Source of the DNA: Tachypleus tridentatus | Taxonomy: Eukaryota; Arthropoda; Merostomata; Xiphosura; Limulidae | Assembly (NCBI RefSeq): GCF_004210375.1 | Contig: NC_134834.1 | Coordinates: 95,980,170-96,044,169, forward strand | Direction of reading: 5' to 3' | Length of the DNA stretch: 64,000 nucleotides | Part shown: positions 13,875-46,935 of the stretch, in pieces | Layout of the letters: every line of letters begins with the position of its first letter | Position numbering within the stretch: the stretch's first letter is position 1 | Translations under genes and position numbers: made by a program | The notes under the pieces: generated by a model | Seen by the model: only the letters and a program-made list of their open reading frames with translations | Told to the model about the DNA's origin: nothing | Database searches by the model: none

Positions 13875-13963
13875 ACTACGCTAAAGTTCGGGGTTCGATT
13901 CTCCGCGGTGAACAGAGTGCACATATAGCCCATGTGTAGTTTTCCGTTAAAACAACGTGACAC
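13875..13963 (+). mobile_element. family-B SINE, 5'-truncated, in the Myc intron
   Basis: Begins at the anticodon arm (TACGCTAAAGTTCGGGGTTC) and keeps the T-arm and the ATAGCCCATGTGTAG tail. Confidence 0.5.
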
Positions 13964-14000
13964 AAGAAAAGTTGTCATAACTAAGTTGACTGTCAACTTA

Positions 14001-14092
14001 GATGGTAACACAACGCTAGATGTCGGGTTTCGATACCATGGTTGGGCAAAATACAAATAACCCATTGCATAACTTTGCGCTTAACAACAATC
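14001..14092 (+). mobile_element. family-B SINE, 5'-truncated, in the Myc intron
   Basis: A second, separate truncated copy: ACACAACGCTAGATGTCGGG to ACCCATTGCATAACTTTGCG. Confidence 0.5.
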
Positions 14093-14253
14093 AAATTCCA
14101 TTTTTCGGCTTTTCGCTACATTAATATTTATTATGTAATTGTTACAATTACCAAAAAATACAATAATTTTCAAATACCATCTTTACATTAAGAGATACAA
14201 TATACTTAACCTACTGATACGAAGTTTTGTTAACAATACACTACCTTACCTAC

Positions 14254-21052: not shown

Positions 21053-21202
21053 TGTGATGGAGTTATTTATTTCTAGTACTAAATACATCAACTTTTATTT
21101 GAATACTTTGATTAGATAGAATGACACATTACTTTAACATTGTTGCATGTCTCAAGTACGCTACATTAAACTATTTTGAGCATCATGCTAATAAAATTAT
21201 GG

Positions 21203-21468
21203 TTAGTTAGTTATTTGGTATTTTGCGCAAAGCTACACGAGGGCTATCTACGCTAGTCGTTCCTAATTTAGCAATGTAAGACTAGAGGGAAGACAGCTAG
21301 TCATCACCACTCACCGCCAACTCTTGGGCTACTCTTTTATCAACGAATAGTGGGATTTACCGTAACATTATAACGCCCCCAGGGCATGTTGGTGCGACCG
21401 GGATTCGAACCTTCGGGCCCTCGGATTACGAGTCAAACGCTTTAACACACTTGGCTATGCCGGGCCAT
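21203..21468 (-). mobile_element. family-A SINE at the left edge of the segmental duplication
   Basis: Inverted copy with an 11-base duplication TAAAATTATGG at 21192-21202 and 21469-21479. Its right half (TATCAACG variant, TTACCGTAAC, CAGGGCATGTTGG deletion variant) reappears in the junction SINE at 31978-32230. Confidence 0.9.
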
Positions 21469-22132
21469 TAAAATTATGGAAAGACCAATGATGAAAGATT
21501 ATATAAGTGACTGTTATAATATCTCTCTACTGAGCAACTCCAGAATAACAATAGCACCAGACATTTAATTTATATTCATCTTGTGGTGCTTTGCTTACAG
21601 ACTTTGGTTGATGGCATAAAGGAAGAAAATAAGTTTAATGTATTATTATGTATCAAAACAGTGAAAGGTTTCATCGTTCGTTTATCCAATGCGGTAACGA
21701 AATGTACATCTCAAAAGAGTTGCGTAATCAATGCTTAATTAAATATACACAATAGCTTTCAGAAACGAATAAGTTACTTTATTACATTGGTATAAAATAG
21801 TAATAATTTATAAGCAAAATAATATATCTGAATATATAAAAATAAAACATCAGTCAAACTGAAAAAAATTCAAATTTTTACAACACAAGGTGACACAGCA
21901 TCATGAGTCAAACTTATGTGTTTTTTTTTTTAAATAGCTTCAGTACTATGCAGTAATATTAGGTCATCCCATAAGTAATGTCCGAAAATTTAATACAGAA
22001 AGTGCATCATTTATGTCTTTGTAGAAGGCTTTAATGACTAAAATATGTAGTAAGATGTATATAAAAATGTTCAGACAAATAAAATAAATAACCCAACTCC
22101 TCTTTTTTAGATCATTAAACAAATAAACCCTT

Positions 22133-23174
22133 ATGAAGATGGATGTGTCTGAGGAGCACATTAGGCATATAATGTTTTATGAGTTTTTAAAAAAAGGAAG
22201 TAGTGCAGAAAAAACAACACGAAACATTCAAGGTGTTTATGGTGTGGAGTCTCTCAATGAAAGAAAATGTCGAAGGTGGTTTCAGAAGTTCAGATCAGGT
22301 GACTACAGCTTAAGTGATGCGCCACGTTCAGGTTGTTCTGTTGAGTTTAATGATGACTTGCTGCTGGCTGTACTTGATGAAGATTGTGCTGTAACAATTG
22401 AAGAACTAGCACAGAAGCTTAATTTAACCCATTCAACAGGTCACTGTTATCTGCAACAGCTTGGAAAAGTGTCAAAAATTGGAAAATGTGTCCCCCATGA
22501 GTTGACAGAAGCTAACCTGAGAGCAAGAGTGGACAATTGCACTTCTCTGCACTCTCGTGAACGTAACTCACCTTTTTTTGGACAAGTTAGTGACTGGAGA
22601 TGAATAATTGATATTTTATAAAAAAAATGTTAAGCACCGCAGACAGTGGCTCAGTGCAAGTAAACTGGCTTAAGTAAAGTCCAAAATGGACTTTCACCCT
22701 AGAAAAGTCTTGTTAAGCGTTTGGTGGGATATTGTTGGTGTGATCCACTTTGAGTGGCTATCACTCAGTGTAACGATTACATCAGACTTCTATTGTCAAC
22801 AGTTAGAGCGCTTGACTGTTACACTGAAAGAAAAGAGGCCTGCTTTGATCAATCATGAGGGTGTTGTGTTACACCAGGATTATGTACAGTTTCATACAAC
22901 AAGGATCACACCTGCAAAAATTGAAGAGCTAGACTGGGAAAAAATTCCACATCCTTCTTATTCTCTAGACCTTCCCCCATCTGATTATCATTTATTCAGA
23001 AATTTGCAAAACTATCTTGATGGAAAAGAGCTTGGAACACATGATGATGTCAAAACTATCCTCTTTGTATTCTTTTCCTCTAAACCCCAAGAAGTTTACA
23101 GAAGTGGCGTTCAGAAGCTTGTGAATCGTTGGCAGGAAGTAATTAATAATAATGAAACATACATTATTGATTAA
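22133..23174 (+). pseudogene. mariner transposase pseudogene, copy 1
   Basis: The first piece (22133-22603, 156 codons) is the mariner DNA-binding half: an N-terminal helix-turn-helix (EEHIRHIMFYEFLKKG) followed by RKCRRWFQKFRSGDYSLSDAPRSG. The second (22686-23174, 162 codons) is the C-terminal catalytic half. It contains LHQD (second Asp of the DD34D triad) and YSLDLPPSDYHLF (third Asp). A frameshift in the T-run near 22570 and two in-frame stops lie between them, around TGDE, the first-Asp region. In this copy the residue after the second catalytic Asp is Tyr (Asn in copy 2). It cannot make active transposase. Confidence 0.92.
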
Positions 23175-23244
23175 ATAACATTAAAAGTGTTTGAAACCCT
23201 TTCTATTTTTCTGAACCTAGAATCGGATGTCACTTAAGGGATGA

Positions 23245-23521
23245 TTGTTTGTTTTTGAATTTCGCACAAAGCTACTCGAGGGCTATCTGTGCTAGCCGTC
23301 CCTAATTTAGTACTGTAAAACTAGAGGGAAGGCAGCTAGTCATCACCACCAACCGCCAACTCTTGGGCTACTCTTTTACCAACGAATAGTGGGATTGACC
23401 GTAAATTTATAACGCCCCCTCGGCTAAAAAGGTGAGCATGTTTGGAGCGATGGGGATACGAACCCGTGACGTTCACATTACGAATCGCACGCCTTAACGC
23501 GTTTAGCCATGCTGGTCCACG
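23245..23521 (-). mobile_element. family-A SINE inside the mariner right repeat, copy 1
   Basis: Inverted SINE between the TAAGGGATGA/TAAGGAATGA duplications. It is younger than the mariner and older than the segmental duplication. Confidence 0.88.
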
Positions 23522-23676
23522 TAAGGAATGACCTGATACCTTTAAGAACTACGACATATCGTCTTCGAGTTTCCTGGTTTTTTTTTCTCCATACGATTAC
23601 ACAGTTGAAAATGTTAATTGACTTTAGAAATACGTGAAAACAAAGATTAATTGCATTCATTCCAAGAAGGAAAACA

Positions 23677-24830
23677 GAAACCGATAATGGAAAACTTTGT
23701 TCTTGAAGAAACAGAAAAAAAAAAGAAACAAAAAGAGATCTCATATCAAAACTACTAAAAACAAAACAATTTTGTCATAACTGTTCTGGTAGAAAACAGC
23801 AGAGCTCAGAAAATATAATTTTAGGTACCTGCTTTTTGGAATGGTATTTTTAATGGAACAAGTGCCAGCACTTGTGTCCTTTTATTTATCTATCTTCTAC
23901 ACCAACATAAGATTTGAAAAGCACAAATAAATACACGAGCCTTAGGCCTGAGGCCAGGAGATGAGGCACACGATCTGATTCAGGATGGCTCTAATCAGTT
24001 TATCCGAAACCTTTATTAATGATCTGATATCCCTAGTACTGAGGGCTTTGCTGTAGAAGACATTCCCCACCCTAAGATCTGTTTTACCTTTTAAAATTTC
24101 TTGTTTTATATTTAAGTGTATTTTTTATTGTGTACTGTATTATATACTGAAGCTAATACCAGTACTCCTGTTATTTTCATGGAAGTGTCTGAAGATCACT
24201 GGCATGTTTGGTGCAATCGTTACAATTATTGACCAGTCACAAGCGGCATCACATAAACAGAATGTTGTCATCTAATTACTGGAATACTACAGTTATATAT
24301 ATAGTGATTTAGGCCTTCGTTATGATACCATATGCTTTAACAGAAGCTGTAATTGTGTAAACGAGAGTTAACAAGTGAGGTGTATTTACACAGGCCTACG
24401 AAGTTAACCTTCGTAGAAACTCTTTTGTTTTCAGTAATTCAGCTACGCCTATTTTGGAAATTTTATTTATTTTTCTATCACGTAAGGATTTTTTTACAAA
24501 TCAGGAACAAAAAATGTTCTTACTAAGATTAAGCTATTTTTTCGTTTGCCACAATGGATATATATATATATATATGCTAGGTCCACCGAGAGAAATCGAA
24601 CGCTCGATTTTAGCATACTAAATCTATAGGCTTTTCGGGAGACCTGTAGCTTGGACGGTTTTGTCCCTTTCGTTTTTTGTTTTTTTTTTGGCTAGGTGAT
24701 TAGAGCGTTCGAGTCATAATTTAAGGGTTATGGGTTCGAATTATCGTCACACCAACATGCTCACCCTTTCAGCCGTGGGAAGCGTTATAATGTAACGATC
24801 AATACCAATATTCGTTAGTAAAAGAGGAGT
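23677..24830. other. segment present only in duplication copy 1
   Basis: About 1.15 kb absent from the second copy, where GAAAACA at 34431-34437 is followed directly by CCAAGAGTTGG of a SINE. The block holds no ORF I recognise. It contains a family-B SINE piece (24580-24652), a TA microsatellite at about 24558-24574, and the 5' half of a family-A SINE that begins near 24689. Confidence 0.85.
24580..24652 (-). mobile_element. family-B SINE fragment
   Basis: GGTCCACCGAGAGAAATCGAAC followed by the anticodon arm; the head is lost. Lies in the block missing from duplication copy 2. Confidence 0.5.
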
Positions 24831-24957
24831 CCAAAAGCTGGCGGTGGGTGGTGATGACTAGCTGCCTTCCCTTTAGTCTTACACTGCTAAATTAAGGATA
24901 GCTAGCGCAGAAAGCACTCGTGTAGCTTTGCGAGAAATTAAAAACAAACAAACAAAC
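24689..24957 (+). mobile_element. family-A SINE, copy 1
   Basis: Head GGCTAGGTGATTAGAGCGTT, box GGGTTCGAATTATCG, body and (CAAA)n tail. In duplication copy 2 only its second half remains. Confidence 0.85.
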
Positions 24958-25599
24958 ATATATATTTTTTTAAAAAATTGGAGATTTAATACGTTCCTGT
25001 TACAGCTGAACTATATAGCAAATTTTGTGAAAAAAATGTGGCGTAGAAATCATTTGTTGCAAAAGAATACTCAATAACATTAAAACATAATTATTCTAAA
25101 TGTTCATAAAATTAAATCCGTTTTCTTGCCTTATTCACAAACTCGCATTAGTCTTAGAAAAATAACAAAATAGTTGTTTCCTGATTGGTTCACACACACA
25201 GACAGTAATATATTTACTCATTTTAAACATTATAAACAATAGAGAAGTATGTTGAAAGTCTTCGTATTTGACTTCTTAAGGAATGTTGATATATTTATTT
25301 GAGCTGTATTATTTAAACTATTATCAATTTTCTATTTTAGGCTTGCAAATGTCTTTACATATGCATGAATTATTTTCACCATAAAAGTCAAAATTAATCG
25401 GCGTATTTTAGTGCCACACTTTTACTACTCATTGTTCATAATACAGACAGTTGTACACATTAACCATATAAACATACAAATGTTTGTGCTCCGATTAATA
25501 GCACATTTGCAAGTTATGTAGTCAATTGGAAAATTTGGTAATCCATCGAGCGTGACAACACCACTGGACAGGATTCAATCGCTTTAACTTTCTTACAGC

Positions 25600-25772
25600 A
25601 ATGTCTTGACATGTCACGAAATAGCAAAGCCTTGATATATCACGCTATAGCAGTTTTGAAATATCACATTATAGCAATACCTGGACATTTCACGTGATAG
25701 CAAGGCCTTTGATATATCACGTAATATATACAATGTCTTGACATGTCGCATATACCAATGTCTTAAACTGTC
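25600..25772. repeat. degenerate short tandem repeat, copy 1
   Basis: About five irregular units of roughly 30-35 bases built on a TTGACATGTCACG...TAGCAA theme (variants TTGATATATCACG and TGGACATTTCACG). It sits immediately before a family-B SINE. The matching stretch in copy 2 is at about 35208-35379. Confidence 0.6.
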
Positions 25773-25903
25773 GCCCCCGCTAGTACAGCGGTATGTCTCG
25801 GATTACAACGCTAAAATCAGGGGTTCGATTCCTCTCGGTGGGCTGAGCAGATAGCCCGATGTGGCTTTGCTACAAGAAAAACAAACACACACACACACAC
25901 ACA
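25773..25903 (+). mobile_element. family-B SINE with perfect target duplication and CA tail, copy 1
   Basis: The tRNA-like head runs from CCCCCGCTAGTACAGCGGTATG to GGGTTCGATTCCTC (B-box-like), followed by GCAGATAGCCCGATGTGGC and a (CA)n tail. It is flanked by CTTAAACTGTC at 25762-25772 and 25904-25914. This is the clearest family-B copy in the window. Confidence 0.8.
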
Positions 25904-26175
25904 CTTAAACTGTCAAGATGCACATGGGCCATAATGTAAAACTTGGCTTGCTATGCATTCAGTAAAATAGAAACTCGAATTAAAAATTGGATTATTATAT
26001 GAATGTTTTCATATTCCCTGAGCTAACTAGTGAGATATGTTTAATTTAAAACCCACAGAATGGCACTGCCTTCGAAAGGCCTAAAGACTAAGTCTTACAG
26101 CATTATTGTTTCATTTGTTTATTCAGCATTTTGTATAATCAGAAGGAACCCAAGCCAGGAGAGTCACTTGTTTCT

Positions 26176-26452
26176 GACCTGGCATGGCCAAGCGCGTAAG
26201 GCGTGCGACTCGTAATCCGAGGGTCGCGGGTTCGTGCCCGCGTCGTGCTAAACATACTCGCCCTCCCAGCCGTAGGGGTGTATAATGTTACGGTCAATCC
26301 CACTATTCGTTGGTAAAAGAGTAGCCCAAGAGTTGGCGGTGGGTGGTGATGACTAGCTGCCTTCCCTCTAGTCTTACACTGCTAAATTAGGGACGGCTAG
26401 CACAGATAGCCCTCGAGTAGCTTTGTGCGAAATTCCCAAACAAACAAACAAA
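26176..26452 (+). mobile_element. family-A SINE with target duplication, copy 1
   Basis: CACTTGTTTCT at 26165-26175 and 26453-26463 flanks a complete element (head CCTGGCATGGCC, tail AAACAAACAAAC). Confidence 0.9.
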
Positions 26453-27356
26453 CACTTGTTTCTTTACGGTCACGATTGGAATGGCGGGAACACTCGAGTT
26501 GCGTCATTCACTGACAGTAGCATCAAAAGAAACATTGAAATTCCTATAAAACTCGGGAAAAAGAAAAATAATAAATTATGGTTTGTTTTTAACTCCGCTG
26601 AATTATACTTAATTAAGAACCTATAAAATGTCTTGATGATCTGAGGTTGGAAAGTTGAGACATATTTTCCTTACGGACATAACAATTCTCACAAGCCGTT
26701 CTATAGTATATCTTAGCGTCACTTAGATGTTTCCTGTTTTCACATTATGTCTTTGACGTTATATTTTTGGAAATTGACCTTGTAGGAGATAGATAATCTT
26801 GTTTGTATTAGCGTGGTTCTTAGCGAGAGGAAATAAGGGGTGCCTCAGCCATAGTGACCGGAAATCGGGCTTCGCATCCCGTGATAATAAGTTTCGGATG
26901 TGCGAAAACAATAGGCTAATAAAACAACAGGGAGTAAAAAGTATTCGAGAAACATACATCATCACTGAGAGAAAGCGATAATTCATGTTGTTGTTTTAAT
27001 TATACTGACCACAGAAATCATATGACATATGAGATGTTTTTGCTCCACGTTTATTGTTAAGTTTGTTTGTTTTTTATCAAATCATTTATGCATTAATTTT
27101 TTGCATTTTTCCTTACAAATATTTATTTAACAGATGCTTGAGTAAGAAAGCAAGTTATGCTAATATAATGATAGGTAGATAATAACAGAGTTTTATTGAT
27201 GGTGTAACATGATATTGGTCTGTTTCCTTCACGTATGATCTGTACCAAGTAAAGGGCTTATATAGTGTTACAAACACTAAAGAATTGGTTGGTTGGTTGG
27301 TTTGGTTTGGTGTTCTATGGCGCAAAGAAACTAGGCTATCTGCGCCAACGTTTAAG

Positions 27357-27634
27357 TTTGTTTGTTTGTTTTGAATTTCCCACAAAGCTACTCGAGGGCT
27401 ATATGTGCTAGCCGTCCCTAATTTATCAGTGTAAGACTAGAGGGAAGGCAGCTAGTCATCAACACCCACCGCCAACTCTTTGGCTACTCTTTTACCAACG
27501 AATAGTGGGACTGACCGTCGCATTATAATACGTCCATGGCTGAAAGGGCAAGCATGTTTGGTGTGACGGGGATTCGAACCCGCGACCCTCAGATTACGAG
27601 TTGAACGTCTTAACCACCTGGCATGTGCCAGGCA
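27357..27634 (-). mobile_element. family-A SINE, copy 1
   Basis: Inverted full copy ending CACCTGGCATGTGCC. A short extra SINE-like piece (GGCGCAAAGAAACTAGGC) and GGTT repeats precede it at 27285-27350. Confidence 0.82.
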
Positions 27635-27870
27635 GCTTGCTTACATTTAGCATTGCAAGTCAACTTACACACACAAGTTTAGACATGTTCCATATCTATT
27701 TAAAATGCCATGCTGATAATAATGAACTCTTTCATAAGATAAAATTTCATTTGTACATTGTAAGCACAACATAGTATATTTCATTAAAAAAAAAATCCAT
27801 GAAGGACCGAAAAATGGAATAATCTATCAGAAGATTGAAATTTGACAAATGGCTTCGACGTTTTCGTGTG

Positions 27871-27963
27871 TCCTCGAGGTATCTGCTGAGAACACCGCAG
27901 GGGAATCAAACCCCTGATTTTACCGTTGTAAATCCGTAGACTTACCGCTGTACCAGCAGGGGA
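27871..27963 (-). mobile_element. family-B SINE head, copy 1
   Basis: AATCAAACCCCTGATTTTAC to TACCAGCAGGGG, the inverted tRNA-like head with little tail left. Its duplicate is at about 37478-37570. Confidence 0.55.
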
Positions 27964-29982
27964 CCTGCAAAACTGACCTATTAACATACGTAGAAGAAAA
28001 TGCATATATATATTATATATTTAATGAATTTGAACTCAAGTTTCCTTTTTCTCCGTATAATACAGTAACTTTTTTTTTTTTTAACTATAAGCAACATGGT
28101 GAAGGAAAACTCGTCACACATTATGTATATATAAATTAAAATATACCCCATTCACAGTCTCAGTTAAACACTGTCACAAATCAGCCACCCTGATGAGACA
28201 TTGTCGGAACTGGATATGGCAGATGTTATTGTGCTTGACATATATTCTCTCTCGCTTTCATTCGTGAGTTCATAGAACTGTTAATGTTAGTAGTGTCGTT
28301 TTCTCCCGCTGACGCTGTAATTCCTCGCTGGTTCACTGGTTATTGTGAATTATTGTAAAATTAATTAAACCAAATAATAATAATTATAAATAAACAAAAA
28401 ATAATAATCGTTGTCAACAGAAAATAAACAATGTTGTATTATTTATTTTTACTGTAAAATATCCTATTTGTAAACTACTTATGTTTGTATAATAACTACA
28501 GTTCACTTGTTTAATCGGGTTTACACCCTAATATTCCTTGTTCATGAAAATTGATGACGCGTGCCTAAACAACTACTTTGTTTCGTATCCTAGTCGGTCC
28601 TTTGAACCTTGGGATTGAGCGAAAGGCCTCGTCGGCAGTGGTTATAACAGATGCAGTGGGATTGACATATCCTTCTTTGAATCACCTCATTATTGTTTAG
28701 AATTCCGAGCTTAGTATGAGCTATGAACAACCGCGTAAACCTGGCAGTGTGAACAACCGTGATACTAAACAACGGACCAATTAGAAAATTTTATAAACAG
28801 AGATATAATTGGTCAAAAAACTAAAAGCAATATTGGAATCGATTTGTTATGTTTCCTGCTGAGATTAAACTGAATTGTATTAAGAGATCGAATTATAGCT
28901 ATAATGATTCAGTTTCTGTTTTAACGAGGCGTTTAGTAATTCCCTGAATAAACTATCACGACAAATTGTTTGAACATTCGTCAACAGGTGTGTTGAAGCT
29001 TCCTAGGCTTTAATTTATATTTGCAAACTTCGGTTTCATAAGATGTCGATTTGAACTTTAAAAGAAAATATTATCCAATTTTTGTTAGCTCAATGCTAAA
29101 TTAAAATAATAGTTTTAATTCAATTCAGAAGATTCATATTGTAAAGTTTCAGATATGTGTACTTAGTCTAAACAATATATGTTTATTGCATCACAGAAAC
29201 AACATATATATACGTATAAACATAATATTTTTATTCCAACAGTGACAGCTATATGAGCCTTCAGTTGTTTTTGTTTGAACGCAAAGTTATGTAAAGAAAT
29301 CGAACCCCGGATTTTTCAATGAAAGCCTATGAGCTTAATCCTGATTCTTCATAGGACATCTGATAATCGCGATAGGTTCTTCACATTCTTTGTTATTATA
29401 GCTGGCTAATAGCAGCTTTATCTGCCCAGTATTACAGGGATAATCTTATCTACAAGCAGACATACTTCAAATATTAGGTCATTTAGACCTTGCTCTGAAA
29501 CACACGAACCTTGACTTTGTCTTACAAGATTTTCTGGTGTTTAAACGCTATTTTAGCTTTTAAGTCACATAGCTGTTTCACAGACTTATAAACGTTCGGC
29601 TGATAAATGATATTATGTATTGAAAACCATTTCTTTATCAAACTTTTCGTCTCGAATAGAGCTCAAATTTAGTCAACTTATATTATGATATTGATGCAAT
29701 TCTATATAAAGCATGAATTCAGTTGTTATGATATTCGGTTGAAAAGATCGCTAGACATGGAGAAGCAAATATTTAAAAATGGTATAACACACGTTTATAA
29801 CAAACATTTCTATTCTTGTTTGCAATGTTCTGGGCAGAAGCCCTTTTTGTCAGGCATTATATTAATTGTGTTACATGGAGAAAAAAGAGGCTTAAACAAA
29901 ATCGTTGAAAGGTTAGAATACACAAAGATTCTAAAATGCATATATAATACGTGAAACGCGTTAACAAAAACACCGTTAGAAG
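27964..29982. other. no gene recognised, duplication copy 1
   Basis: Small ORFs such as 29685-29954 are repeated in copy 2 (39292-39561) only because of the recent duplication. A possible family-B SINE scrap lies near 29285-29340. Confidence 0.5.
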
Positions 29983-30254
29983 GTTTGTTTTGAATTTCGC
30001 GCAAAGCTACACGAAGACTATCTGCGCTAGCTGTGTCTAATTTAGCAGTGTAAAAATAGAGGCTAGGCAGCTAGTCATCACCACGCACCGCCAACTCTTG
30101 GGTTACTCTTTTACCAACGAATAGTTGGATTGACTGTAACGTTATAACGCCCCCACGGCTGAAAATGCGGACGTGCTTGGTGCGACGGGCATTCGAACCC
30201 GCGATTCTCAGATTACTGGTCGAGTGCCCTAAACACCTGGCCATGCTGGGCCAT
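29983..30254 (-). mobile_element. family-A SINE, copy 1
   Basis: Inverted full copy: TTTGTTTTGAATTTCGCGCA to CACCTGGCCATGCTGGGCC. Confidence 0.85.
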
Positions 30255-30273
30255 CGCTAGAAGGAACGATGGA

Positions 30274-30395
30274 GTGTTTGTTTGCTTTGTAATTAAGCAC
30301 AAAGTTACACAAAGGGCTATCTGTGCTCTGCCCGTCACGGATATCGAAACCCGGTTTCTAACGGTGTTAGTCAAACCGCTGTGCAGCGGAGGGGG
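30274..30395 (-). mobile_element. family-B SINE, copy 1
   Basis: Inverted: TTAAGCACAAAGTTACACAA tail, GGGCTATCTGTGCTCTGCCC, GATATCGAAACCCGG box and a GCTGTGCAGCGG head. Confidence 0.65.
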
Positions 30396-30646
30396 GCGAT
30401 CCTGGAAGTTGAAGTGTTTGGGAAATGGGTGTTCTAGGGTGCCTTTGCACACAAGTTGGAGATGTTCAGGAAGTCTGTCAGGTGATTTGGGTATAGTTTT
30501 CCTAGTATACAGGTATACAGTTGTTTACACTTTGTACAGGGAATCCAATAAATAATGCGCAGTAAGGTACAAGTGAATAGGTCTTTCACGTAAAGGTAGA
30601 ACTGAAGGGAGTCGATAAGTCGGTGATATGATCATATGTAAGACAA

Positions 30647-30699
30647 AGAGTGTCTTCACACAGACGACTTCTGTTAGTTTGTGTAAGTGAAGACACTCT
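30647..30699. ncRNA. short hairpin, duplication copy 1
   Basis: AGAGTGTCTTCAC pairs perfectly with GTGAAGACACTCT 40 bases downstream, and partial pairing extends inward to a loop around TTCTGTTA. The size (53 bases) is near the lower limit for a microRNA precursor. It may instead be a remnant of a small inverted-repeat element. There is no expression evidence. Confidence 0.25.
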
Positions 30700-31527
30700 A
30701 GTTTGAAATATGGAAAATATTAGGTAGTATTTCACATTACTTTCACATTTGCAGGATGTAGAAATGTCGTTAGATGTGTTGTTGTTCTTTGTTAGTAAGG
30801 TAATGTTGCCACGCACAATTCTGCTAATTTGTGTGGTTAAAGGATGATATGTAAGGACCGAAGACTCTGTCACTATGGTGGCTTGTCGTTGGAGTAGACA
30901 CAGTCAGCTTGTATTAAAGTGAAAGTGGCATGTTTGGAGTTATCAGGATAATTCTGATGTCTAAAATAACGAGTCATGTCGTTTAATTTATTCATAAAAT
31001 CAGCGCTGGAATTTCATCATAATAAATTACTACCAACATATCTGTCCATAAAAATAATTTAAAATATTCACCTTTTATTATCTCTATATTTGTAGTGTAC
31101 ACTTACTTGTTCATCTATATTCACCAATCTATTTATCATTAGCCCTGTTTGCTTTGTATTATAAATCTGCTTACAGCGATTAAGGTGTAATAAATTCCAG
31201 TAATTATTTACCGGTATGAAAGAAATGTAGCTGCTTAACATGAACAGGAAAAAAACAAAAACAACAGCAACCACAACCTGACAGTGAAGTCACAGAACTA
31301 CGAACAAGAGTTGAACGAACGTATTCACGCGCGTAAAAACTAAACTTTGAAATTTTTTCTGTACCCTGAATTCAGTTGGTGAGACATTCAGGTGTATTTT
31401 GGCAATTAATATCCTAAAAAAAACTTTTTATCTCAACCATGTAAATGACTGTTAATATGAATACTGTCCACATGTGAACAGCCAATCTCTGTTTGATTTT
31501 AATTAAGCAAAAAGGTAATTTGACATG

Positions 31528-31800
31528 GGGCCTGGCATGGCCTAGCGCGTTAAGGAGTGCGCTTCGTAATCTGAGAGTCGCGGGTTCGCGCCCGAGTTGC
31601 GCCAAACATGCTCGCCCTCCCAGCCGTGGGGGCGTTATAATGTGACGGTCAATCCCACTATTCATTGGTAAAAGAGTAGCCCAAGAGTTGGCGGTGGGTA
31701 GTGATGACTAGCTGCCTTCCCTCTAGTCTTACACTGCTAAATTAGGAACGGCTAGCACAGATAGCCCTCGAGTTGCTTTGTGCGAAATTCCAAAACAAAC
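31528..31800 (+). mobile_element. family-A SINE with target duplication, copy 1
   Basis: AATTTGACATG at 31517-31527 and 31801-31811 flanks a complete element with a GCGTTAAGGAGTGCGCTTCG variant head. Confidence 0.9.
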
Positions 31801-31977
31801 AATTTGACATGAATACCCTATTCGTGTTTCTTCAATTACACTTATTGGTTTAAACTGGGGAACTTTTGTTATGATCGGAACATTACTAATTACACTAAGT
31901 AAACATGCTAATGCTGACAAAGGTTTGACGCACTTTTTGAAGAATGATTTGCATATATTAGTGCTACAGGCGACAAG

Positions 31978-32230
31978 TTTGTTTTTGTTTCGAATTTCGC
32001 GCAAAGTTGGACGAGGGCTATCGTTCCTAATTTAGCAGTGTAAAACTGGAGGGAAGGTAGCTAGTCATCACCACCCACCGCCAACTCTTGGGCTACTCTT
32101 TTATCAACGAATAGTGGGATTTACCGTAACATTATAACGCCCCCAGGGCATGTTGGTGCGACCGGGATTCGAACCTTCGGGCCCTCGGATTACGAGTCAA
32201 ACGCTTTAACACACTTGGCTATGCCGGGCC
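31978..32230 (-). mobile_element. chimeric family-A SINE at the duplication junction
   Basis: The left part (GTTGGACGAGGGCTATCG, AAAACTGGAGGGAAGGTAGC) matches the SINE at 41579-41832. The right part (CTCTTTTATCAACG, TTACCGTAAC, CAGGGCATGTTGG) matches the SINE at 21203-21468. The switch lies at about 32060-32085. Left and right flanks likewise match those two different SINEs. Confidence 0.9.
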
Positions 32231-32897
32231 ATTAAAATTATGGAAAGACCAATGATGAAAGATTATATAAGTGACTGTTATAATATCTCTCTACTGAGCA
32301 ACTCCAGAATAACAATAGCACCAGACATTTAATTTATATTCATCTTGTGGTGCTTTGCTTACAGACTTTGGTTGATGGCATAAAGGAAGAAAATAAGTTT
32401 AATGTATTATTATGTATCAAAACAGTGAAAGGTTTCATCGTTCGTTTATCCAATGCGGTAACGAAATGTACATCTCAAAAGAGTTGCGTAATCAATGCTT
32501 AATTAATTATACACAATAGCTTTCAGAAACGAATAAGTTACTTTATTACATTGGTATAAAATAGTAATAATTTATAAGCAAAATAATATATCTGAATATA
32601 TAAAAATAAAACATCAGTCAAACTGAAAAAAATTCAAATTTTTACAACACAAGGTGACACAGCATCATGAGTCAAACTTATGTGTTTTTTTTTTTAAATA
32701 GCTTCAGTACTATGCAGTAATATTAGGTCATCCCATAAGTAATGTCCGAAAATTTAATACAGAAAGTGCATCATTTATGTCTTTGTAGAAGGCTTTAATG
32801 ACTAAAATATGTAGTAAGATGTATATAAAAATGTTCAGACAAATAAAATAAACTAACCCAACTCCACTTTTTCAGATCATTAAACAAATAAACCCTT

Positions 32898-33940
32898 ATG
32901 AAGATGGATGTGTCTGAGGAGCACATTAGGCATATAATGATTTATGAGTTTTTTAAAAAAGGAAGTAGTGCAGAAAAAACAACACGAAACATTCAAGGTG
33001 TTTATGGTGTGGAGTCTCTCAATGAAAGAAAATGTCGAAGGTGGTTTCAGAAGTTCAGATCAGGTGACTACAGCTTAAGTGATGCGCCACGTTCAGGTCA
33101 TCCTGTTGAGTTTAATGATGACTTGCTGCTGGCTGTACTTGATGAAGATTGTGCTGTAACAATTGAAGAACTAGCACAGAAGCTTAATTTAACCCATTCA
33201 ACAGGTCACTGTTATCTGCAACAGCTTGGAAAAGTGTCAAAAATTGGAAAATGTGTCCCCCATGATTTGATAGAAGCTAACCTGAGAGCAAGAGTGGACA
33301 ATTGCACTTCTCTGCACTCTCGTGAACGTAACTCACCTTTTTTTGGACAAGTTAGTGACTGGAGATGAATAATTGATATTTTATAAAAAAAAATGTTAAG
33401 CACCGCAGACAGTGGCTCAGTGCAAGTAAACTGGCTTAAGTAAAGTCCAAAATGGACTTTCACCCTAGAAAAGTCTTGTTAAGCGTTTGGTGGGATATTG
33501 TTGGTGTGATCCACTTTGAGTGGCTATCACTCAGTGTAACGATTACATCAGACTTCTATTGTCAACAGTTAGAGCGCTTGACTGTTACACTGAAAGAAAA
33601 GAGGCCTGCTTTGATCAATCATAAAGGTGTTGTGTTACACCAGGATAATGTACAGTTTCATACAACAAGGATCACACCTGCAAAAATTGAAGAGCTAGAC
33701 TGGGAAAAAATTCCACATCCTTCTTATTCTCTAGACCTTCCCCCATCTGATTATCATTTATTCAGAAATTTGCAAAACTATCTTGATGGAAAAGAGCTTG
33801 GAACACATGATGATGTCAAAACTATCCTCTTTGTATTCTTTTCCTCTAAACCCCAAGAAGTTTACAGAAGTGGCGTTCAGAAGCTTGTGAATCGTTGGCA
33901 GGAAGTAATTAATAATAATGAAACATACATTATTGATTAA
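32898..33940 (+). pseudogene. mariner transposase pseudogene, copy 2
   Basis: Two open pieces (32898-33368 and 33452-33940) match those of copy 1, with the same T-run frameshift and the same internal stops around the TGDE motif. The second catalytic Asp is followed by the usual Asn (LHQDN). The RSGHPVEF segment also keeps the family's usual form where copy 1 has RSGCSVEF. Copy 2 is therefore closer to the ancestral mariner at these positions, but it is equally inactive. Confidence 0.92.
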
Positions 33941-34010
33941 ATAACATTAAAAGTGTTTGAAACCCTTTCTATTTTTCTGAACCTAGAATCGGACGTTACT
34001 TAAGGGATGA

Positions 34011-34283
34011 TTGTTTTTGAATTTCGCACAAAGCTACTCGAAAGCTATCTGTGCTAGCCGTCCCTAATTTAGTACTGTAAGACTAGAGGGAAGGCAGCTA
34101 GTCATCACCACCCACCGCCAACTCTTGGGCTACTCTTTTACCAACGAATAGTGGGATTGACCGTAACTTTATAACGCCCCCACGGCTAAAAAGGTGAGCA
34201 TGTTTGGCGCGATGGGGATGCGAACCCGCGACGTTCAGATTACGAATCGCACGCCTTAACGCATTTAGCCATGCCGGCCCACG
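34011..34283 (-). mobile_element. family-A SINE inside the mariner right repeat, copy 2
   Basis: Partner of 23245-23521, with a perfect 10-base target duplication. Confidence 0.88.
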
Positions 34284-34437
34284 TAAGGGATGACCTGATA
34301 CCTTTAAGAATTACGACATATCGTCTTCGAGTTTCCTGGGTTTTTTTCTCCATACGATTACACAGTTGCAAATGTTTATTGACTTTAGAAATACGTGAAA
34401 ACAAAGATTAATTGCATTCATTCCAAGAAGGAAAACA

Positions 34438-34564
34438 CCAAGAGTTGGCGGTGGGTGGTGATGACTAGCTGCCTTCCCTTTAGTCTTACACTGCTAAATT
34501 AAGGATAGCTAGCGCAGAAAGCACTCGTGTAGCTTTGCGAGAAATTAAAAACAAACAAACAAAC
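34438..34564 (+). mobile_element. family-A SINE, second half only, copy 2
   Basis: Starts at CCAAGAGTTGGCGGTGGGTG directly after mariner flank, and shares its tail variants (AAGGATAGC, GCACTCGTGTAGC) with 24689-24957. Its first 10 bases match the family consensus better than copy 1 does. Confidence 0.85.
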
Positions 34565-35379
34565 ATATATATTTTTTTAAAAAATTGGAGATTTAATACG
34601 TTCCTGTTACAGCTGAACTATATAGCAAATTTTGTGAAAAAAATGTGGCGTAGAAATCATTTGTTGCAAAAGAATACTCAATAACATTAAAACATAATTA
34701 TTCTAAATGTTCATAAAATTAAATCCGTTTTCTTGCCTTATTCACAAACTCGCATTAGTCTTAGAAAAATAACAAAATAGTTGTTTCCTGATTGGTTCAC
34801 ACACACAGACAGTAATATATTTACTCATTTTAAACATTATAAACAATAGAGAAGTATGTTGAAAGTCTTCGTATTTGACTTCTTAAGGAATGTTGATATA
34901 TTTATTTGAGCTGTATTATTTAAACTATTATCAATTTTCTATTTTAGGCTTGCAAATGTCTTTACATATGCATGAATTATTTTCACCATAAAAGTCAAAA
35001 TTAATCGGCGTATTTTAGTGCCACACTTTTACTACTCATTGTTCATAATACAGACAGTTGTACACATTAACCATATAAACATACAAATGTTTGTGCTCCG
35101 ATTAATAGCACATTTGCAAGTTATGTAGTCAATTGGAAAATTTGGTAATCCATCGAGCGTGACAACACCACTGGACAGGATTCAATCGCTTTAACTTTCT
35201 TACAGCAATGTCTTGACATGTCACGAAATAGCAAAGCCTTGATATATCACGCTATAGCAGTTTTGAAATATCACATTATAGCAATACCTGGACATTTCAC
35301 GTGATAGCAAGGCCTTTGATATATCACGTAATATATACAATGTCTTGACATGTCGCATATACCAATGTCTTAAACTGTC

Positions 35380-35512
35380 GCCCCCCGCTAGTACAGCGGT
35401 ATGTCTCCGGATTACAACGCTAAAATCAGGGGTTCGATTCCTCTCGGTGGGCTGAGCAGATAGCCCGATGTGGCTTTGCTACGAGAAAAACAAACACACA
35501 CACACACACACA
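35380..35512 (+). mobile_element. family-B SINE, duplication copy 2
   Basis: Counterpart of 25773-25903, with the same CTTAAACTGTC duplication at 35369-35379 and 35513-35523 and the same CA tail. Confidence 0.8.
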
Positions 35513-35784
35513 CTTAAACTGTCAAGATGCACATGGGCCATAATGTAAAACTTGGCTTGCTATGCATTCAGTAAAATAGAAACTCGAATTAAAAATTGGA
35601 TTATTATATGAATGTTTTCATATTCCCTGAGCTAACTAGTGAGATATGTTTAATTTAAAACCCACAGAATGGCACTGCCTTCGAAAGGCCTAAAGACTAA
35701 GTCTTACAGCATTATTGTTTCATTTGTTTATTCAGCATTTTGTATAATCAGAAGGAACCCAAGCCAGGAGAGTCACTTGTTTCT

Positions 35785-36060
35785 GACCTGGCATGGCCAA
35801 GCGCGTAAGGCGTGCGACTCGTAATCCGAGGGTCGCGGGTTCGTGCCCGCGTCGTGCTAAACATACTCGCCCTCCCAGCCGTAGGGGTGTATAATGTTAC
35901 GGTCAATCCCACTATTCGTTGGTAAAGAGTAGCCCAAGAGTTGGCGGTGGGTGGTGATGACTAGCTGCCTTCCCTCTAGTCTTACACTGCTAAATTAGGG
36001 ACGGCTAGCACAGATAGCCCTCGAGTAGCTTTGTGCGAAATTCCCAAACAAACAAACAAA
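35785..36060 (+). mobile_element. family-A SINE, copy 2
   Basis: Partner of 26176-26452, flanked by CACTTGTTTCT at 35774-35784 and 36061-36071. Confidence 0.9.
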
Positions 36061-36964
36061 CACTTGTTTCTTTACGGTCACGATTGGAATGGCGGGAACA
36101 CTCGAGTTGCGTCATTCACTGACAGTAGCATCAAAAGAAACATTGAAATTCCTATAAAACTCGGGAAAAAGAAAAATAATAAATTATGGTTTGTTTTTAA
36201 CTCCGCTGAATTATACTTAATTAAGAACCTATAAAATGTCTTGATGATCTGAGGTTGGAAAGTTGAGACATATTTTCCTTACGGACATAACAATTCTCAC
36301 AAGCCGTTCTATAGTATATCTTAGCGTCACTTAGATGTTTCCTGTTTTCACATTATGTCTTTGACGTTATATTTTTGGAAATTGACCTTGTAGGAGATAG
36401 ATAATCTTGTTTGTATTAGCGTGGTTCTTAGCGAGAGGAAATAAGGGTGCCTCAGCCATAGTGACCGGAAATCGGGCTTCGCATCCCGTGATAATAAGTT
36501 TCGGATGTGCGAAAACAATAGGCTAATAAAACAACAGGGAGTAAAAAGTATTCGAGAAACATACATCATCACTGAGAGAAAGCGATAATTCATGTTGTTG
36601 TTTTAATTATACTGACCACAGAAATCATATGACATATGAGATGTTTTTTGCTCCACGTTTATTGTTAAGTTTGTTTGTTTTTTATCAAATCATTTATGCA
36701 TTAATTTTTTTGCATTTTTCCTTACAAATATTTATTTAACAGATGCTTGAGTAAGAAAGCAAGTTATGCTAATATAATGATAGGTAGATAATAACAGAGT
36801 TTTATTGATGGTGTAACATGATATTGGTCTGTTTCCTTCACGTATGATCTGTACCAAGTAAAGGGCTTATATAGTGTTACAAACACTAAAGAATTGGTTG
36901 GTTGGTTGGTTTGGTTTGGTGTTCTATGGCGCAAAGAAACTAGGCTATCTGCGCCAACGTTTAA

Positions 36965-37240
36965 GTTTGTTTGTTTGTTTTGAATTTCCCACAAAGCTAC
37001 TCGAGGGCTATATGTGCTAGCCGTCCCTAATTTATCAGTGTAAGACTAGAGGGAAGGCAGCTAGTCATCAACACCCACCGCCAACTCTTTGGCTACTCTT
37101 TTACCAACGAATAGTGGGACTGACCGTCGCATTATAATACGTCCATGGCTGAAAGGGCAAGCATGTTTGGTGTGACGGGGATTCGAACCCGCGACCCTCA
37201 GATTACGAGTTGAACGTCTTAACCACCTGGCATGTGCCAG
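36965..37240 (-). mobile_element. family-A SINE, copy 2
   Basis: Partner of 27357-27634 with the same CACCTGGCATGTGCC end. Confidence 0.82.
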
Positions 37241-37477
37241 GCAGCTTGCTTACATTTAGCATTGCAAGTCAACTTACACACACAAGTTTAGACATGTTCC
37301 ATATCTATTTAAAATGCCATGCTGATAATAATGAACTTTTCATAAGATAAAATTTCATTTGTACATTGTAAGCACAACATAGTATATTTCATTAAAAAAA
37401 AATCCATGAAGGACCGAAAAATGGAATAATCTATCAGAAGATTGAAATTTGACAAATGGCTTCGACGTTTTCGTGTG

Positions 37478-37570
37478 TCCTCGAGGTATCTGCTGAGAAC
37501 ACCGCAGGGGAATCAAACCCCTGATTTTACCGTTGTAAATCCGTAGACTTACCGCTGTACCAGCAGGGGA
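37478..37570 (-). mobile_element. family-B SINE head, copy 2
   Basis: Segmental-duplication partner of 27871-27963 with no obvious difference. Confidence 0.55.
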
Positions 37571-39589
37571 CCTGCAAAACTGACCTATTAACATACGTAG
37601 AAGAAAATGCATATATATATTATATATTTAATGAATTTGAACTCAAGTTTCCTTTTCTCCGTATAATACAGTAACTTTTTTTTTTTTTTAACTATAAGCA
37701 ACATGGTGAAGGAAAACTCGTCACACATTATGTATATATAAATTAAAATATACCCCATTCACAGTCTCAGTTAAACACTGTCACAAATCAGCCACCCTGA
37801 TGAGACATTGTCGGAACTGGATATGGCAGATGTTATTGTGCTTGACATATATTCTCTCTCGCTTTCATTCGTGAGTTCATAGAACTGTTAATGTTAGTAG
37901 TGTCGTTTTCTCCCGCTGACGCTGTAATTCCTCGCTGGTTCACTGGTTATTGTGAATTATTGTAAAATTAATTAAACCAAATAATAATAATTATAAATAA
38001 ACAAAAAATAATAATCGTTGTCAACAGAAAATAAACAATGTTGTATTATTTATTTTTACTGTAAAATATCCTATTTGTAAACTACTTATGTTTGTATAAT
38101 AACTACAGTTCACTTGTTTAATCGGGTTTACACCCTAATATTCCTTGTTCATGAAAATTGATGACGCGTGCCTAAACAACTACTTTGTTTCGTATCCTAG
38201 TCGGTCCTTTGAACCTTGGGATTGAGCGAAAGGCCTCGTCGGCAGTGGTTATAACAGATGCAGTGGGATTGACATATCCTTCTTTGAATCACCTCATTAT
38301 TGTTTAGAATTCCGAGCTTAGTATGAGCTATGAACAACCGCGTAAACCTGGCAGTGTGAACAACCGTGATACTAAACAACGGACCAATTAGAAAATTTTA
38401 TAAACAGAGATATAATTGGTCAAAAACTAAAAGCAATATTGGAATCGATTTGTTATGTTTCCTGCTGAGATTAAACTGAATTGTATTAAGAGATCGAATT
38501 ATAGCTATAATGATTCAGTTTCTGTTTTAACGAGGCGTTTAGTAATTCCCTGAATAAACTATCACGACAAATTGTTTGAACATTCGTCAACAGGTGTGTT
38601 GAAGCTTCCTAGGCTTTAATTTATATTTGCAAACTTCGGTTTCATAAGATGTCGATTTGAACTTTAAAAGAAAATATTATCCAATTTTTGTTAGCTCAAT
38701 GCTAAATTAAAATAATAGTTTTAATTCAATTCAGAAGATTCATATTGTAAAGTTTCAGATATGTGTACTTAGTCTAAACAATATATGTTTATTGCATCAC
38801 AGAAACAACATATATATACGTATAAACATAATATTTTTATTCCAACAGTGACAGCTATATGAGCCTTCAGTTGTTTTTGTTTGAACGCAAAGTTATGTAA
38901 AGAAATCGAACCCCGGATTTTTTCAATGAAAGCCTATGAGCTTAATCCTGATTCTTCATAGGACATCTGATAATCGCGATAGGTTCTTCACATTCTTTGT
39001 TATTATAGCTGGCTAATAGCAGCTTTATCTGCCCAGTATTACAGGGATAATCTTATCTACAAGCAGACATACTTCAAATATTAGGTCATTTAGACCTTGC
39101 TCTGAAACACACGAACCTTGACTTTGTCTTACAAGATTTTCTGGTGTTTAAACGCTATTTTAGCTTTTAAGTCACATAGCTGTTTCACAGACTTATAAAC
39201 GTTCGGCTGATAAATGATATTATGTATTGAAAACCATTTCTTTATCAAACTTTTCGTCTCGAATAGAGCTCAAATTTAGTCAACTTATATTATGATATTG
39301 ATGCAATTCTATATAAAGCATGAATTCAGTTGTTATGATATTCGGTTGAAAAGATCGCTAGACATGGAGAAGCAAATATTTAAAAATGGTATAACACACG
39401 TTTATAACAAACATTTCTATTCTTGTTTGCAATGTTCTGGGCAGAAGCCCTTTTTGTCAGGCATTATATTAATTGTGTTACATGGAGAAAAAAGAGGCTT
39501 AAACAAAATCGTTGAAAGGTTAGAATACACAAAGATTCTAAAATGCATATATAATACGTGAAACGCGTTAACAAAAACACCGTTAGAAG
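37571..39589. other. no gene recognised, duplication copy 2
   Basis: Counterpart of 27964-29982 with homopolymer-length differences. Confidence 0.5.
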
Positions 39590-39861
39590 GTTTGTTTTGA
39601 ATTTCGCGCAAAGCTACACGAAGACTATCTGCGCTAGCTGTGTCTAATTTAGCAGTGTAAAAATAGAGGCTAGGCAGCTAGTCATCACCACGCACCGCCA
39701 ACTCTTGGGTTACTCTTTTACCAACGAATAGTTGGATTGACTGTAACGTTATAACGCCCCCACGGCTGAAAGGGAGGACGTGCTTGGTGCGACGGGCATT
39801 CGAACCCGCGATTCTCAGATTACTGGTCGAGTGCCCTAAACACCTGGCCATGCTGGGCCAT
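39590..39861 (-). mobile_element. family-A SINE, copy 2
   Basis: Partner of 29983-30254. A small difference lies after ACGGCTGAAA (GGGAGG here, ATGCGG in copy 1). Confidence 0.85.
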
Positions 39862-39880
39862 CGCTAGAAGGAACGATGGA

Positions 39881-40002
39881 GTGTTTGTTTGCTTTGTAAT
39901 TAAGCACAAAGTTACACAAAGGGCTATCTGTGCTCTGCCCGTCACGGATATCGAAACCCGGTTTCTAACGGTGTTAGTCAAACCGCTGTGCAGCGGAGGG
40001 GG
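39881..40002 (-). mobile_element. family-B SINE, copy 2
   Basis: Partner of 30274-30395 within the second duplication unit. Confidence 0.65.
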
Positions 40003-40253
40003 GCGATCCTGGAAGTTGAAGTGTTTGGGAAATGGGTGTTCTAGGGTGCCTTTGCACACAAGTTGGAGATGTTCAGGAAGTCTGTCAGGTGATTTGGGTA
40101 TAGTTTTCCTAGTATACAGGTATACAGTTGTTTACACTTTGTACAGGGAATCCAATAAATAATGCGCAGTAAGGTACAAGTGAATAGGTCTTTCACGTAA
40201 AGGTAGAACTGAAGGGAGTCGATAAGTCGGTGATATGATCATATGTAAGACAA

Positions 40254-40306
40254 AGAGTGTCTTCACACAGACGACTTCTGTTAGTTTGTGTAAGTGAAGA
40301 CACTCT
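40254..40306. ncRNA. short hairpin, duplication copy 2
   Basis: Identical hairpin to that at 30647-30699, carried along by the segmental duplication. Its conservation therefore says nothing about selection. Confidence 0.25.
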
Positions 40307-41129
40307 AGTTTGAAATATGGAAAATATTAGGTAGTATTTCACATTACTTTCACATTTGTAGGATGTAGAAATGTCGTTAGATGTGTTGTTGTTCTTTGTT
40401 AGTAAGGTAATGTTGCCACGCACAATTCTGCTAATTTGTGTGGTTAAAGGATGATATGTAAGGACCGAAGACTCTGTCACTATGGTGGCTTGTCGTTGGA
40501 GTAGACACAGTCAGCTTGTATTAAAGTGAAAGTGGCATGTTTGGAGTTATCAGGATAATTCTGATGTCTAAAATAACGAGTCATGTCGTTTAATTTATTC
40601 ATAAAATCAGCGCTGGAATTTCATCATAATAAATTACTACCAACATATCTGTCCATAAAAATAATTTAAAATATTCACCTTTTATTATCTCTATATTTGT
40701 AGTGTACACTTACTTGTTCATCTATATTCACCAATCTATTTATCATTAGCCCTGTTTGCTTTGTATTATAAATCTGCTTACAGCGATTAAGGTGTAATAA
40801 ATTCCAGTAATTATTTACCGGTATGAAAGAAATGTAGCTGCTTAACATGAACAGGAAAAAAAAAAACAACAGCAACCACAACCTGACAGTGAAGTCACAG
40901 AACTACGAACAAGAGTTGAACGAACGTATTCACGCGCGTAAAACTAAACTTTGAAATTTTTCTGTACCCTGAATTCAGTTGGTGAGACATTCAGGTGTAT
41001 TTTGGCAATTAATATCCTAAAAAACTTTTTTATCTCAACCATGTAAATGACTGTTAATATGAATACTGTCCACATGTGAACAGCCAATCTCTGTTTGATT
41101 TTAATTAAGCAAAAAGGTAATTTGACATG

Positions 41130-41401
41130 GGGCCTGGCATGGCCTAGCGCGTTAAGGAGTGCGCTTCGTAATCTGAGAGTCGCGGGTTCGCGCCCGAGTT
41201 GCGCCAAACATGCTCGCCCTCCCAGCCGTGGGGCGTTATAATGTGACGGTCAATCCCACTATTCATTGGTAAAAGAGTAGCCCAAGAGTTGGCGGTGGGT
41301 AGTGATGACTAGCTGCCTTCCCTCTAGTCTTACACTGCTAAATTAGGAACGGCTAGCACAGATAGCCCTCGAGTTGCTTTGTGCGAAATTCCAAAACAAA
41401 C
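41130..41401 (+). mobile_element. family-A SINE, copy 2
   Basis: Partner of 31528-31800, with AATTTGACATG at 41119-41129 and 41402-41412. Confidence 0.9.
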
Positions 41402-41578
41402 AATTTGACATGAATACCCTATTCGTGTTTCTTCAATTACACTTATTGGTTTAAACTGGGGAACTTTTGTTATGATCGGAACATTACTAATTACACTAAG
41501 TAAACATGCTAATGCTGACAAAGGTTTGACGCACTTTTTGAAGAATGATTTGCATATATTAGTGCTACAGGCGACACG

Positions 41579-41832
41579 TTTGTTTTTGTTTCGAATTTCG
41601 CGCAAAGTTGGACGAGGGCTATCGTCCCTAATTTACCAGTGTAAAACTGGAGGGAAGGTAGCTAGTCATCACAACCACCGCCAAAGCTTGAGCTACTCTT
41701 TTACCAACGAATAGTGGGATTGATTTTCACATTATGACGCCCCCATAACTGAAAGGGTGACCATTTTGGTGCGATGGGGATTCGAATCCGCGACCCTCGG
41801 AATACAAGTCGAGTGTCTTAGCCACCTGGCCA
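41579..41832 (-). mobile_element. family-A SINE at the right edge of the segmental duplication
   Basis: Inverted copy with private variants (ACAACCACCG, AAAGCTTGAGC, TTGATTTTCAC). Its left part reappears in the junction SINE at 31978, and its right part does not, as expected if recombination switched templates inside it. Confidence 0.88.
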
Positions 41833-42355
41833 TATTTGGTAAGAAATAATAAGAACCTCATGAACTGAATACTTTAAACAAAGTGGTTGGTGAAATTGTC
41901 ACACACAAAGAACAAAGAATTTCATACGACAACATGTACTTCTTAATTAGGAACATAAAACATACCATTGGATAGTGCTAAGCACCTGCATTCTCAGCGG
42001 GACAAGTTGACTAACCGGATAGATTTTTGTTTTTAAATTTTGTAACTTGTATGTATGAATGAACACATTTCCATCTCGTACTGTTCTCACTTGGATAAAA
42101 CAAGTTAAACATGATAATTAACGATTTTTATTGAAACCCAGAATGTGAAGTTTGACAACGCAAGCTGGGGGATGTTACAGAACTACGCAACAACGTGCAT
42201 CATCGCTCTGACGTACAAAGTGGAATAGAAGTTACTGTTTTACACCTAGCAAACACTGAAAGCTAAGACAATGACTTGTAACACCTGCTGTAAAATGGGT
42301 TTCACTATAATAAATCCTGAAACGATTTAAGTGGAAAAGGAAAGATTGGTTTTTG

Positions 42356-43265: not shown

Positions 43266-43413
43266 ACTGTAAAAACGGAAGTAACAAATGACCTATTATG
43301 CATTTCCGGTTCCTACTTATAACTTTTTTTCACGCACAATTATATAAGAACGAAACACATTTTCAGTTTAAGAGACAATACTGCTGAAGTTTTTAAACCG
43401 TATCTTATTCATT

Positions 43414-43788
43414 TACTTACTACGTAATTTGTAAGAAGGAATTAGATAACAGTGAATATCAGATTAAAAAATTACTTACTTACTATGTAATTTGTAAGAA
43501 GGAATTAGATAACAGTGAATATCAGATTAAAAACTTAATTACTTACTGTGTAACTTGTAAGAAGGAATTAGATAAAAGTGAATATCAGATTAAAAATTAA
43601 TTACTCACTATGTAATTTGTAAGAAGGAATTAGATAACAGTGAATATAAGATTAAAAAATTAATTACTCACTATGTAATTTGTAAGAAGGAATTAGATAA
43701 CAGTGAATATAAGATTAAAAAATTAATTACTCACTATGTAATTTGTAAGAAGGAATTAGATAACAGTGAATATCAGATTAAAAAACTA
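43414..43788. repeat. tandem repeat, about 6 units of 63 bp
   Basis: The marker TTGTAAGAAGGAATTAGATA recurs every 62-64 bases from about 43430 to about 43744. Units differ by a few substitutions (for example ATCAG or ATAAG). Confidence 0.9.
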
Positions 43789-43871
43789 ACAAAATATGTG
43801 TAAAAAACCGTCGAAAGTTGTCTTTATGGTTTCTGAGATGGAGGGTTGACAAAACAGAAATAAATGTTTTT

Positions 43872-45991: not shown

Positions 45992-46935
45992 AGTAGCCCA
46001 AGATTTGGTAATGGGTACTATTGCTTAGAGTAGCTCAAGATTTGGTAATGGGTACTATTGTCTAGAGTAGCCCAAAAGTTGGTAACGGACACTATTGACT
46101 TGAGTAGTCGAAGAGCTAGTAATGAATACTGTTGACTGGAGTAGCCCAAGAGTTGGTAATGAATACTGTTGATTAGGATAGCTCAAGAGATTGTAATGAA
46201 TACTGTTGATTAAAATAACACAAGAGATTGTAATGAATACTGTTGATTAGGATAGCTCAAGAGATTGTAATGAATACTGTTGATTAGGATAGCTCAAGAG
46301 ATTGTAATGAATACTGTTGATTAGGATAGCTCAAGATATTGTAATGAATACTGTTGATTAGGATAGCTCAAGATATTGTAATGAATACTGTTGATTAGGA
46401 TAGCTCAAGAGATTGTAATGAATACTGTTGATTAGGATAGCTCAAGATATTCTAATGAATTTTGTTGATTAGGATAGCTCAAGATATTGTAATGAATACT
46501 GTTGATTAGGATAGCTCAAGAGGTTGTAATGAATACTGTTGATTAGGATAGCTCAAGAGATTGTAATGAATACTGTTGATTAGGATAGCTCAAGAGATTG
46601 TAAGGAATATTGTTGATTAGGATAGCTCAAGAGTTTGTAATGAATACTGTTGATTAGGATAGCTCAAGATATTGTAATGAATACTGTTGATTAGGATAGC
46701 TCAAGATATTGTAATGAATACTGTTGATTAGGATAGCTCAAGAGATTGTAATGAATACTGTTGATTAGGATAGCTCAAGAGATTGTAATGAATACTGTTG
46801 ATTAGGATAGCTCAAGAGATTGCAATGAATACTGTTGACTAGAGTAACCCAAGATCTGGTACTTAATACTGTTGACTAGAGTAACTTAAGGGTTGGTAAT
46901 GAATTCTGTTGACTATCAGTTCAAAAGCTGGTACT
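45992..46935. repeat. minisatellite, about 25 units of 37 bp, resembling part of the SINE body
   Basis: The typical unit is GATAGCTCAAGAGATTGTAA followed by TGAATACTGTTGATTAG. Edge units read AGTAGCCCAAGAGTTGG followed by TAATGAATACTGTTGACT. The family-A SINE contains AGTAGCCCAAGAGTTGG followed by CGGTGGGTGGTGATGACTAG, also 37 bases. Edge units are closer to the SINE than central ones. Confidence 0.92.

Follow-up and report, generated by a model that had tools for sequence, protein, structure and literature searches.

A probable SINE-mediated tandem duplication with a chimeric SINE at its seam in Tachypleus tridentatus

Tandem duplication mediated by SINEs is an already well-known kind of event, and its closest described counterparts are the human TE-mediated rearrangements with homologous junctions (TEMR-HR), mostly Alu/Alu. 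In the part of the human survey drawn on here (PMC9675761), the TEs at such junctions have a median similarity of 82.6%, the junction homology is shorter than 40 bp in the majority, and direct orientation is found in 91% of the TE-mediated deletions and duplications. The authors of that survey favor RAD51-independent routes for most TEMR-HR, and classical NAHR in mammals is there associated with more than 100 bp of perfect identity. A break-induced deletion reporter in cells adds that Alu pairs diverged by at least 15% are repaired mostly by end joining and not in register (PMC4356517, in the section available). A second body of work concerns false duplications in genome assemblies, which, according to the available portion of PMC9516828, are marked by low depth, by sequence gaps or depth gaps separating the copies, by discordant linked reads and by haploid k-mers. 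The same portion also reports a genuine allele-specific tandem duplication seen at haploid depth. The locus described here is most likely an ordinary, well-resolved SINE-mediated tandem duplication; the only rival of weight is assembly error.

The window, i.e. the whole stretch of DNA that was analyzed, comprises 64,000 bases with 35% G+C and 0 N. By self-alignment, direct repeats were found in two blocks, positions 21202-23676 matching 31977-34437 and positions 24831-32222 matching 34438-41833. Self-comparison thus delimits a duplication unit A (21202-31976) and a unit B (31977-41577), which directly abuts unit A at a SINE. Three SINEs on the minus strand mark the boundaries: S21 at the left end (21202-21466, with a putative tRNA-like head at its right end), recognized by its SINE family match and an 11-bp target-site duplication (TSD); S31 at the seam (31977-32230), delimited by a three-SINE alignment and the column table made from it; and S41 at the right end (41578-41833), placed by alignment and SINE family match. 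The first-pass annotation had given coordinates for the duplication and the SINEs that lie within 1 bp of these, and to it we add a 1,154-bp deletion in unit B and an uneven divergence of the two units.

Altogether 174 ORFs of at least 60 aa were found in the window. A Pfam scan was applied to eight of the 11 ORFs of at least 130 aa, the remaining three being unit B twins of scanned ORFs, and four of the eight had a match. Unit A carries a broken mariner-type transposase on the plus strand at 22127-23174, in two ORFs identified by Pfam (HTH_48 and Transposase_1); matching ORFs of unit B lie at 32892-33940, the scan having covered the unit A ORFs only. Outside the duplication, two minus-strand ORFs at 10546-15000 resemble portions of a Myc gene, with Pfam matches to HLH and Myc_N, and a 287-codon open frame at 47970-48833, with several cysteines near its start, had no Pfam match at E 0.001.

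The family scan returned 35 matches to a single SINE family in the window, and S21 and S41 have the same orientation in it. Candidate A and B boxes, as judged by the usual box patterns, are present in the family consensus (TGGCCAAGTGG and GGTTCGAATCC, with starts 44 bp apart). ARAGORN reported no tRNA in the whole window or in the SINE consensus; an Rfam tRNA match at 7889-7948 stayed under the gathering score (24.9 vs 29, E 0.82), as did two weak tmRNA matches. The family may resemble the Nin-DC SINEs. Tandem arrays also occur in the window. One of them, a 37-bp minisatellite of 25 copies at 45992-46915, has a unit that resembles the SINE core (consensus about 133-176); the best six BLAST pieces between the two showed 69-95% identity over 19-39 bp at E values from 1e-4 to 0.016, and two further pieces had E values of 0.11 and 6. 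To go by this resemblance, the array was probably born from the SINE, like a limpet satellite that is reported, in the part of PMC11121367 at hand, as derived from Nin-SINE. The others are a 43-bp satellite of 91 copies at 60087-64000, which runs to the end of the window, and two arrays at 5627-6387 and 43413-43789 whose repeat units measure roughly 76 and 63 bp, respectively.

The seam SINE had been proposed to join S41's left half and left flank to S21's right half and right flank, and the three-SINE alignment with its column table bears this out. S31 agrees with S41 against S21 at all differing columns through 32022, including a 10-bp gap common to the two, and with S21 at all differing columns starting from 32085 as well as in the right flank. 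Ten further differing columns span 32025-32075, six of them S41-like (32038, 32044, 32048, 32057, 32058 and 32075) and four S21-like (32025, 32035, 32071 and 32074). The switch is consequently placed within 32059-32084, matching the earlier estimate of 32060-32085; it would lie in 32076-32084 should the S21-like states at 32071 and 32074 be due to S41 having changed afterwards, and in 32059-32070 should the later change have been in S21, at the position paired with 32075. The right part of S31 with its flank (32076-32852) equals S21 at 776 of 777 positions, with one mismatch, and the left flank (31629-31975) equals that of S41 at 347 of 347 positions. The limits of both stretches were set at the closest small indels; the base that follows the identical left flank, 31976, differs from the S41 flank. 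In the same three-SINE alignment, the left flank of S21 and the right flank of S41 did not align to the flanks of S31.

An independent SINE insertion at the seam as the origin of S31 was considered and rejected; both flanks and both parts of the element belong to S41 and S21, and we give this alternative practically no credence. The TSDs also speak to this point. S21 bears an 11-bp TSD, TAAAATTATGG, at 21192 and 21469, and S31 carries only the right half of it, with no left partner of at least 7 bp, so that it is not an insertion of its own. For S41, no TSD of at least 6 bp was found. Nor does the register of the seam look accidental. Removing the pairs that touched unit B from 2,000,000 random breakpoint pairs drawn 5-15 kb apart left 1,432,873, of which 686 (0.05%) hit two same-orientation copies with the register within 10 bp, a rough figure because register was taken from copy ends and the window was treated as circular.

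To the left of the switch the S31 sequence is patchy. Over about 98 bp (31976-32075 vs 41577-41675), S31 and S41 differ by four substitutions and one indel, one of the substitutions being that at 31976, just outside the SINE; the clustering of substitutions here has a Fisher p of 4e-6, with bounds chosen after seeing the data. All four of the SINE-internal differences between S31 and S41 left of the switch are S21-like. At three of the four S21-like columns, S31 and S21 carry the commonest state of the family, which is little informative, and at 32025 they have in common a minority state found in three of 19 other copies. Any of three sources would produce such a tract, namely patchy heteroduplex repair, alleles that differ at S41, or mixed reads merged into one consensus.

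How similar the two parents are depends on how gaps are treated, with 204 of 245 aligned bases equal (83%), or 204 of 283 columns when gaps are counted (72%). The longest stretch of exact identity between them, 17 bp (21341-21357), lies away from the switch, around which the exact runs are 13 and 9 bp. We ranked the pair among the 21 copies longer than 200 bp, leaving out unit B copies except S41; these form 100 direct pairs, 52 of them no more than 12 kb apart once the duplication is allowed for in the spacing. Among those 52, S21-S41 is 20th by identity and 44 have a longer exact run, so the best-matched pair was not the one used. The first-pass annotation had explained the structure by unequal recombination between directly oriented SINEs. 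An exchange in register between such elements is indeed seen; the 83% identity, with exact homology of 9-13 bp, however, makes a classical homologous route doubtful.

In terms of the known systems, the short, diverged homology makes this event more like short-homology SINE/SINE (Alu/Alu-type) rearrangement than like classical NAHR. Two elements of the same family lie in direct orientation at the breakpoints, and an in-register chimera rebuilds the element with breakpoint homology of 13 and 9 bp, i.e. below 40 bp, between parents about 82-83% similar (gaps aside), all of which recalls TEMR-HR as described in the available part of PMC9675761. The likeness to the human median would nevertheless depend on how gaps were counted there, given the 72% obtained here with gaps included. 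Differences from the human events are the apparently tRNA-like nature of the SINE and the size of the unit, 10 kb compared with the 1,085 bp that the same part of PMC9675761 gives for TEMR duplications. A tandem duplication from misaligned direct repeats is common to this locus and to classical NAHR, but the 17-bp run falls far short of the perfect identity cited above for the latter. By analogy, the mostly end-joined fate of Alu pairs diverged by at least 15%, as far as the section of PMC4356517 goes, would count against a simple in-register route.

If the duplication arose in this manner, the ancestral locus would have held a single unit flanked by S21 and S41, both oriented alike. On one chromatid or homolog, a DNA end that was broken or stalled within S41 may have paired with S21 on another by way of short homology in register (9-13 exact bp inside the 83%-identical SINEs), and end joining or synthesis during repair would then have produced the arrangement S21-unit-S41/S21-unit-S41. 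A short-homology or homeologous pathway, MMBIR-like or by annealing of non-allelic copies, seems preferable to classical NAHR. The diverged block and the deletion of unit B, described below, may be allelic differences if homologs exchanged, or else the result of later conversion.

The divergence between the units is unevenly spread. From 24839 to 31975 only five substitutions occur in 7,124 bp (0.07%), three of which fall inside a 4-bp stretch of the SINE at 29983, together with 18 small indels, of which 15 are in homopolymer runs of 3 or more. To the left, 21312-21999 has one substitution in 688 bp. Between these, 22000-24838 has 34 substitutions in 1,680 bp (2.0%), four small indels (three of 1 bp and one of 4 bp) and a 1,154-bp gap in B; the contrast in substitutions with 24839-31975 has a Fisher p of 6e-20, for block bounds chosen after seeing the data. 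The event had been called recent on account of the similarity of the units, and this fits the 7.1 kb at 0.07% but does not hold for the 2.0% block with its 1.15-kb deletion. Natural divergence does not usually give more single-base homopolymer indels than substitutions, and the excess seen here suggests residual long-read error in two truly almost identical copies.

The right edge of the 1,154 bp present in A (23677-24830) and absent from B falls within a SINE of which A has the whole and B a truncated copy (34438-34563, plus strand, by self-comparison and the family scan), for which reason the difference is read as a deletion in B. A SINE/SINE event was rejected as the origin of this deletion, since its left edge at 23676 is outside SINE matches and no microhomology was seen by eye at the deletion seam. 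Mis-polishing of SINEs was also considered as a general cause of differences and found no support in the SINEs at 26181 and 27357, which show 0 substitutions between the units in their 500-bp bins, although the SINE at 29983, with three of the five substitutions of the near-identical part, counts in its favor.

One variant, compatible with the main reading, is an exchange between sister chromatids, giving units identical at birth, with 22000-24838 later converted from a diverged allele. The confinement of the divergence (34/1,680, against 5/7,124 rightward and 1/688 leftward) agrees with it, but a plain exchange between two homologs yields the same pattern in one step, and we regard the variant as possible, if on the unlikely side. 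Ectopic conversion of the unit B SINE at 34008 from a copy within the window was rejected, no donor standing out: this SINE is slightly nearer than its unit A counterpart to 14 of 20 copies and less near to six, and at 18 differing columns, some of them at ragged ends, the commonest state of the family is found in B at nine, in A at five and in neither at four. A reading that we consider fairly unlikely is that one recent exchange between homologs, unequal and at SINEs diverged by 17%, left both the allelic block with its deletion and the patchy tract, the latter by heteroduplex repair or repeated template switching.

The first-pass annotation had named two haplotypes joined by an assembler as the alternative, and several of these features can also be read as a false duplication, in which two haplotypes, or one sequence twice, were placed in tandem by the assembler with a crossover inside the common SINE. 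Near-identical neighboring copies with a divergent block are what this locus shares with the heterotype and homotype false duplications described in the available portion of PMC9516828, where such a block beside near-identical sequence is a reported setting for their origin and where 7 to 24% of false duplications in three earlier assemblies lay on the same scaffold. The 7.1 kb with 15 of 18 indels in homopolymers and five substitutions also fits one sequence assembled twice, the homopolymer indels being linked to such cases by reasoning from sequencing error; the 2% block with the 1,154-bp indel looks like heterozygosity, and the S21-like differences of patchy S31 could come from a mixed-read consensus. 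No assembly gap separates the copies, however, in which they differ from the false duplications of that portion of PMC9516828, although a gap is usual there and not required, as false copies can also be joined gaplessly via sequence without read support. The in-register seam inside a diverged SINE is a further difference, as the join would rest on 9-13 exact bp in an 83%-identical 250-bp element, a seam that few overlap criteria would be expected to accept, and with better-matched direct SINE pairs nearby an overlap-driven misjoin would have had better choices. Finally, the stretches of 777 bp on the right and 347 bp on the left of the seam differ from their parents by only 1 and 0 bases, which polishing could also bring about. 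On balance we consider a false duplication fairly unlikely.

The structure itself, with its chimeric element, its register and the shortness of its homology, is directly readable. A real and young tandem duplication is in our judgement the probable explanation, as far as assembled sequence can tell, and it is from this structure that we infer a duplication event in the animal. If real, the locus offers a base-resolved case in which SINEs drove a duplication at short, diverged homology and the parents, the product and the switch can all be read; if false, it would serve as a warning that a chimeric repeat at a seam, even one in register, is in itself no proof of duplication.
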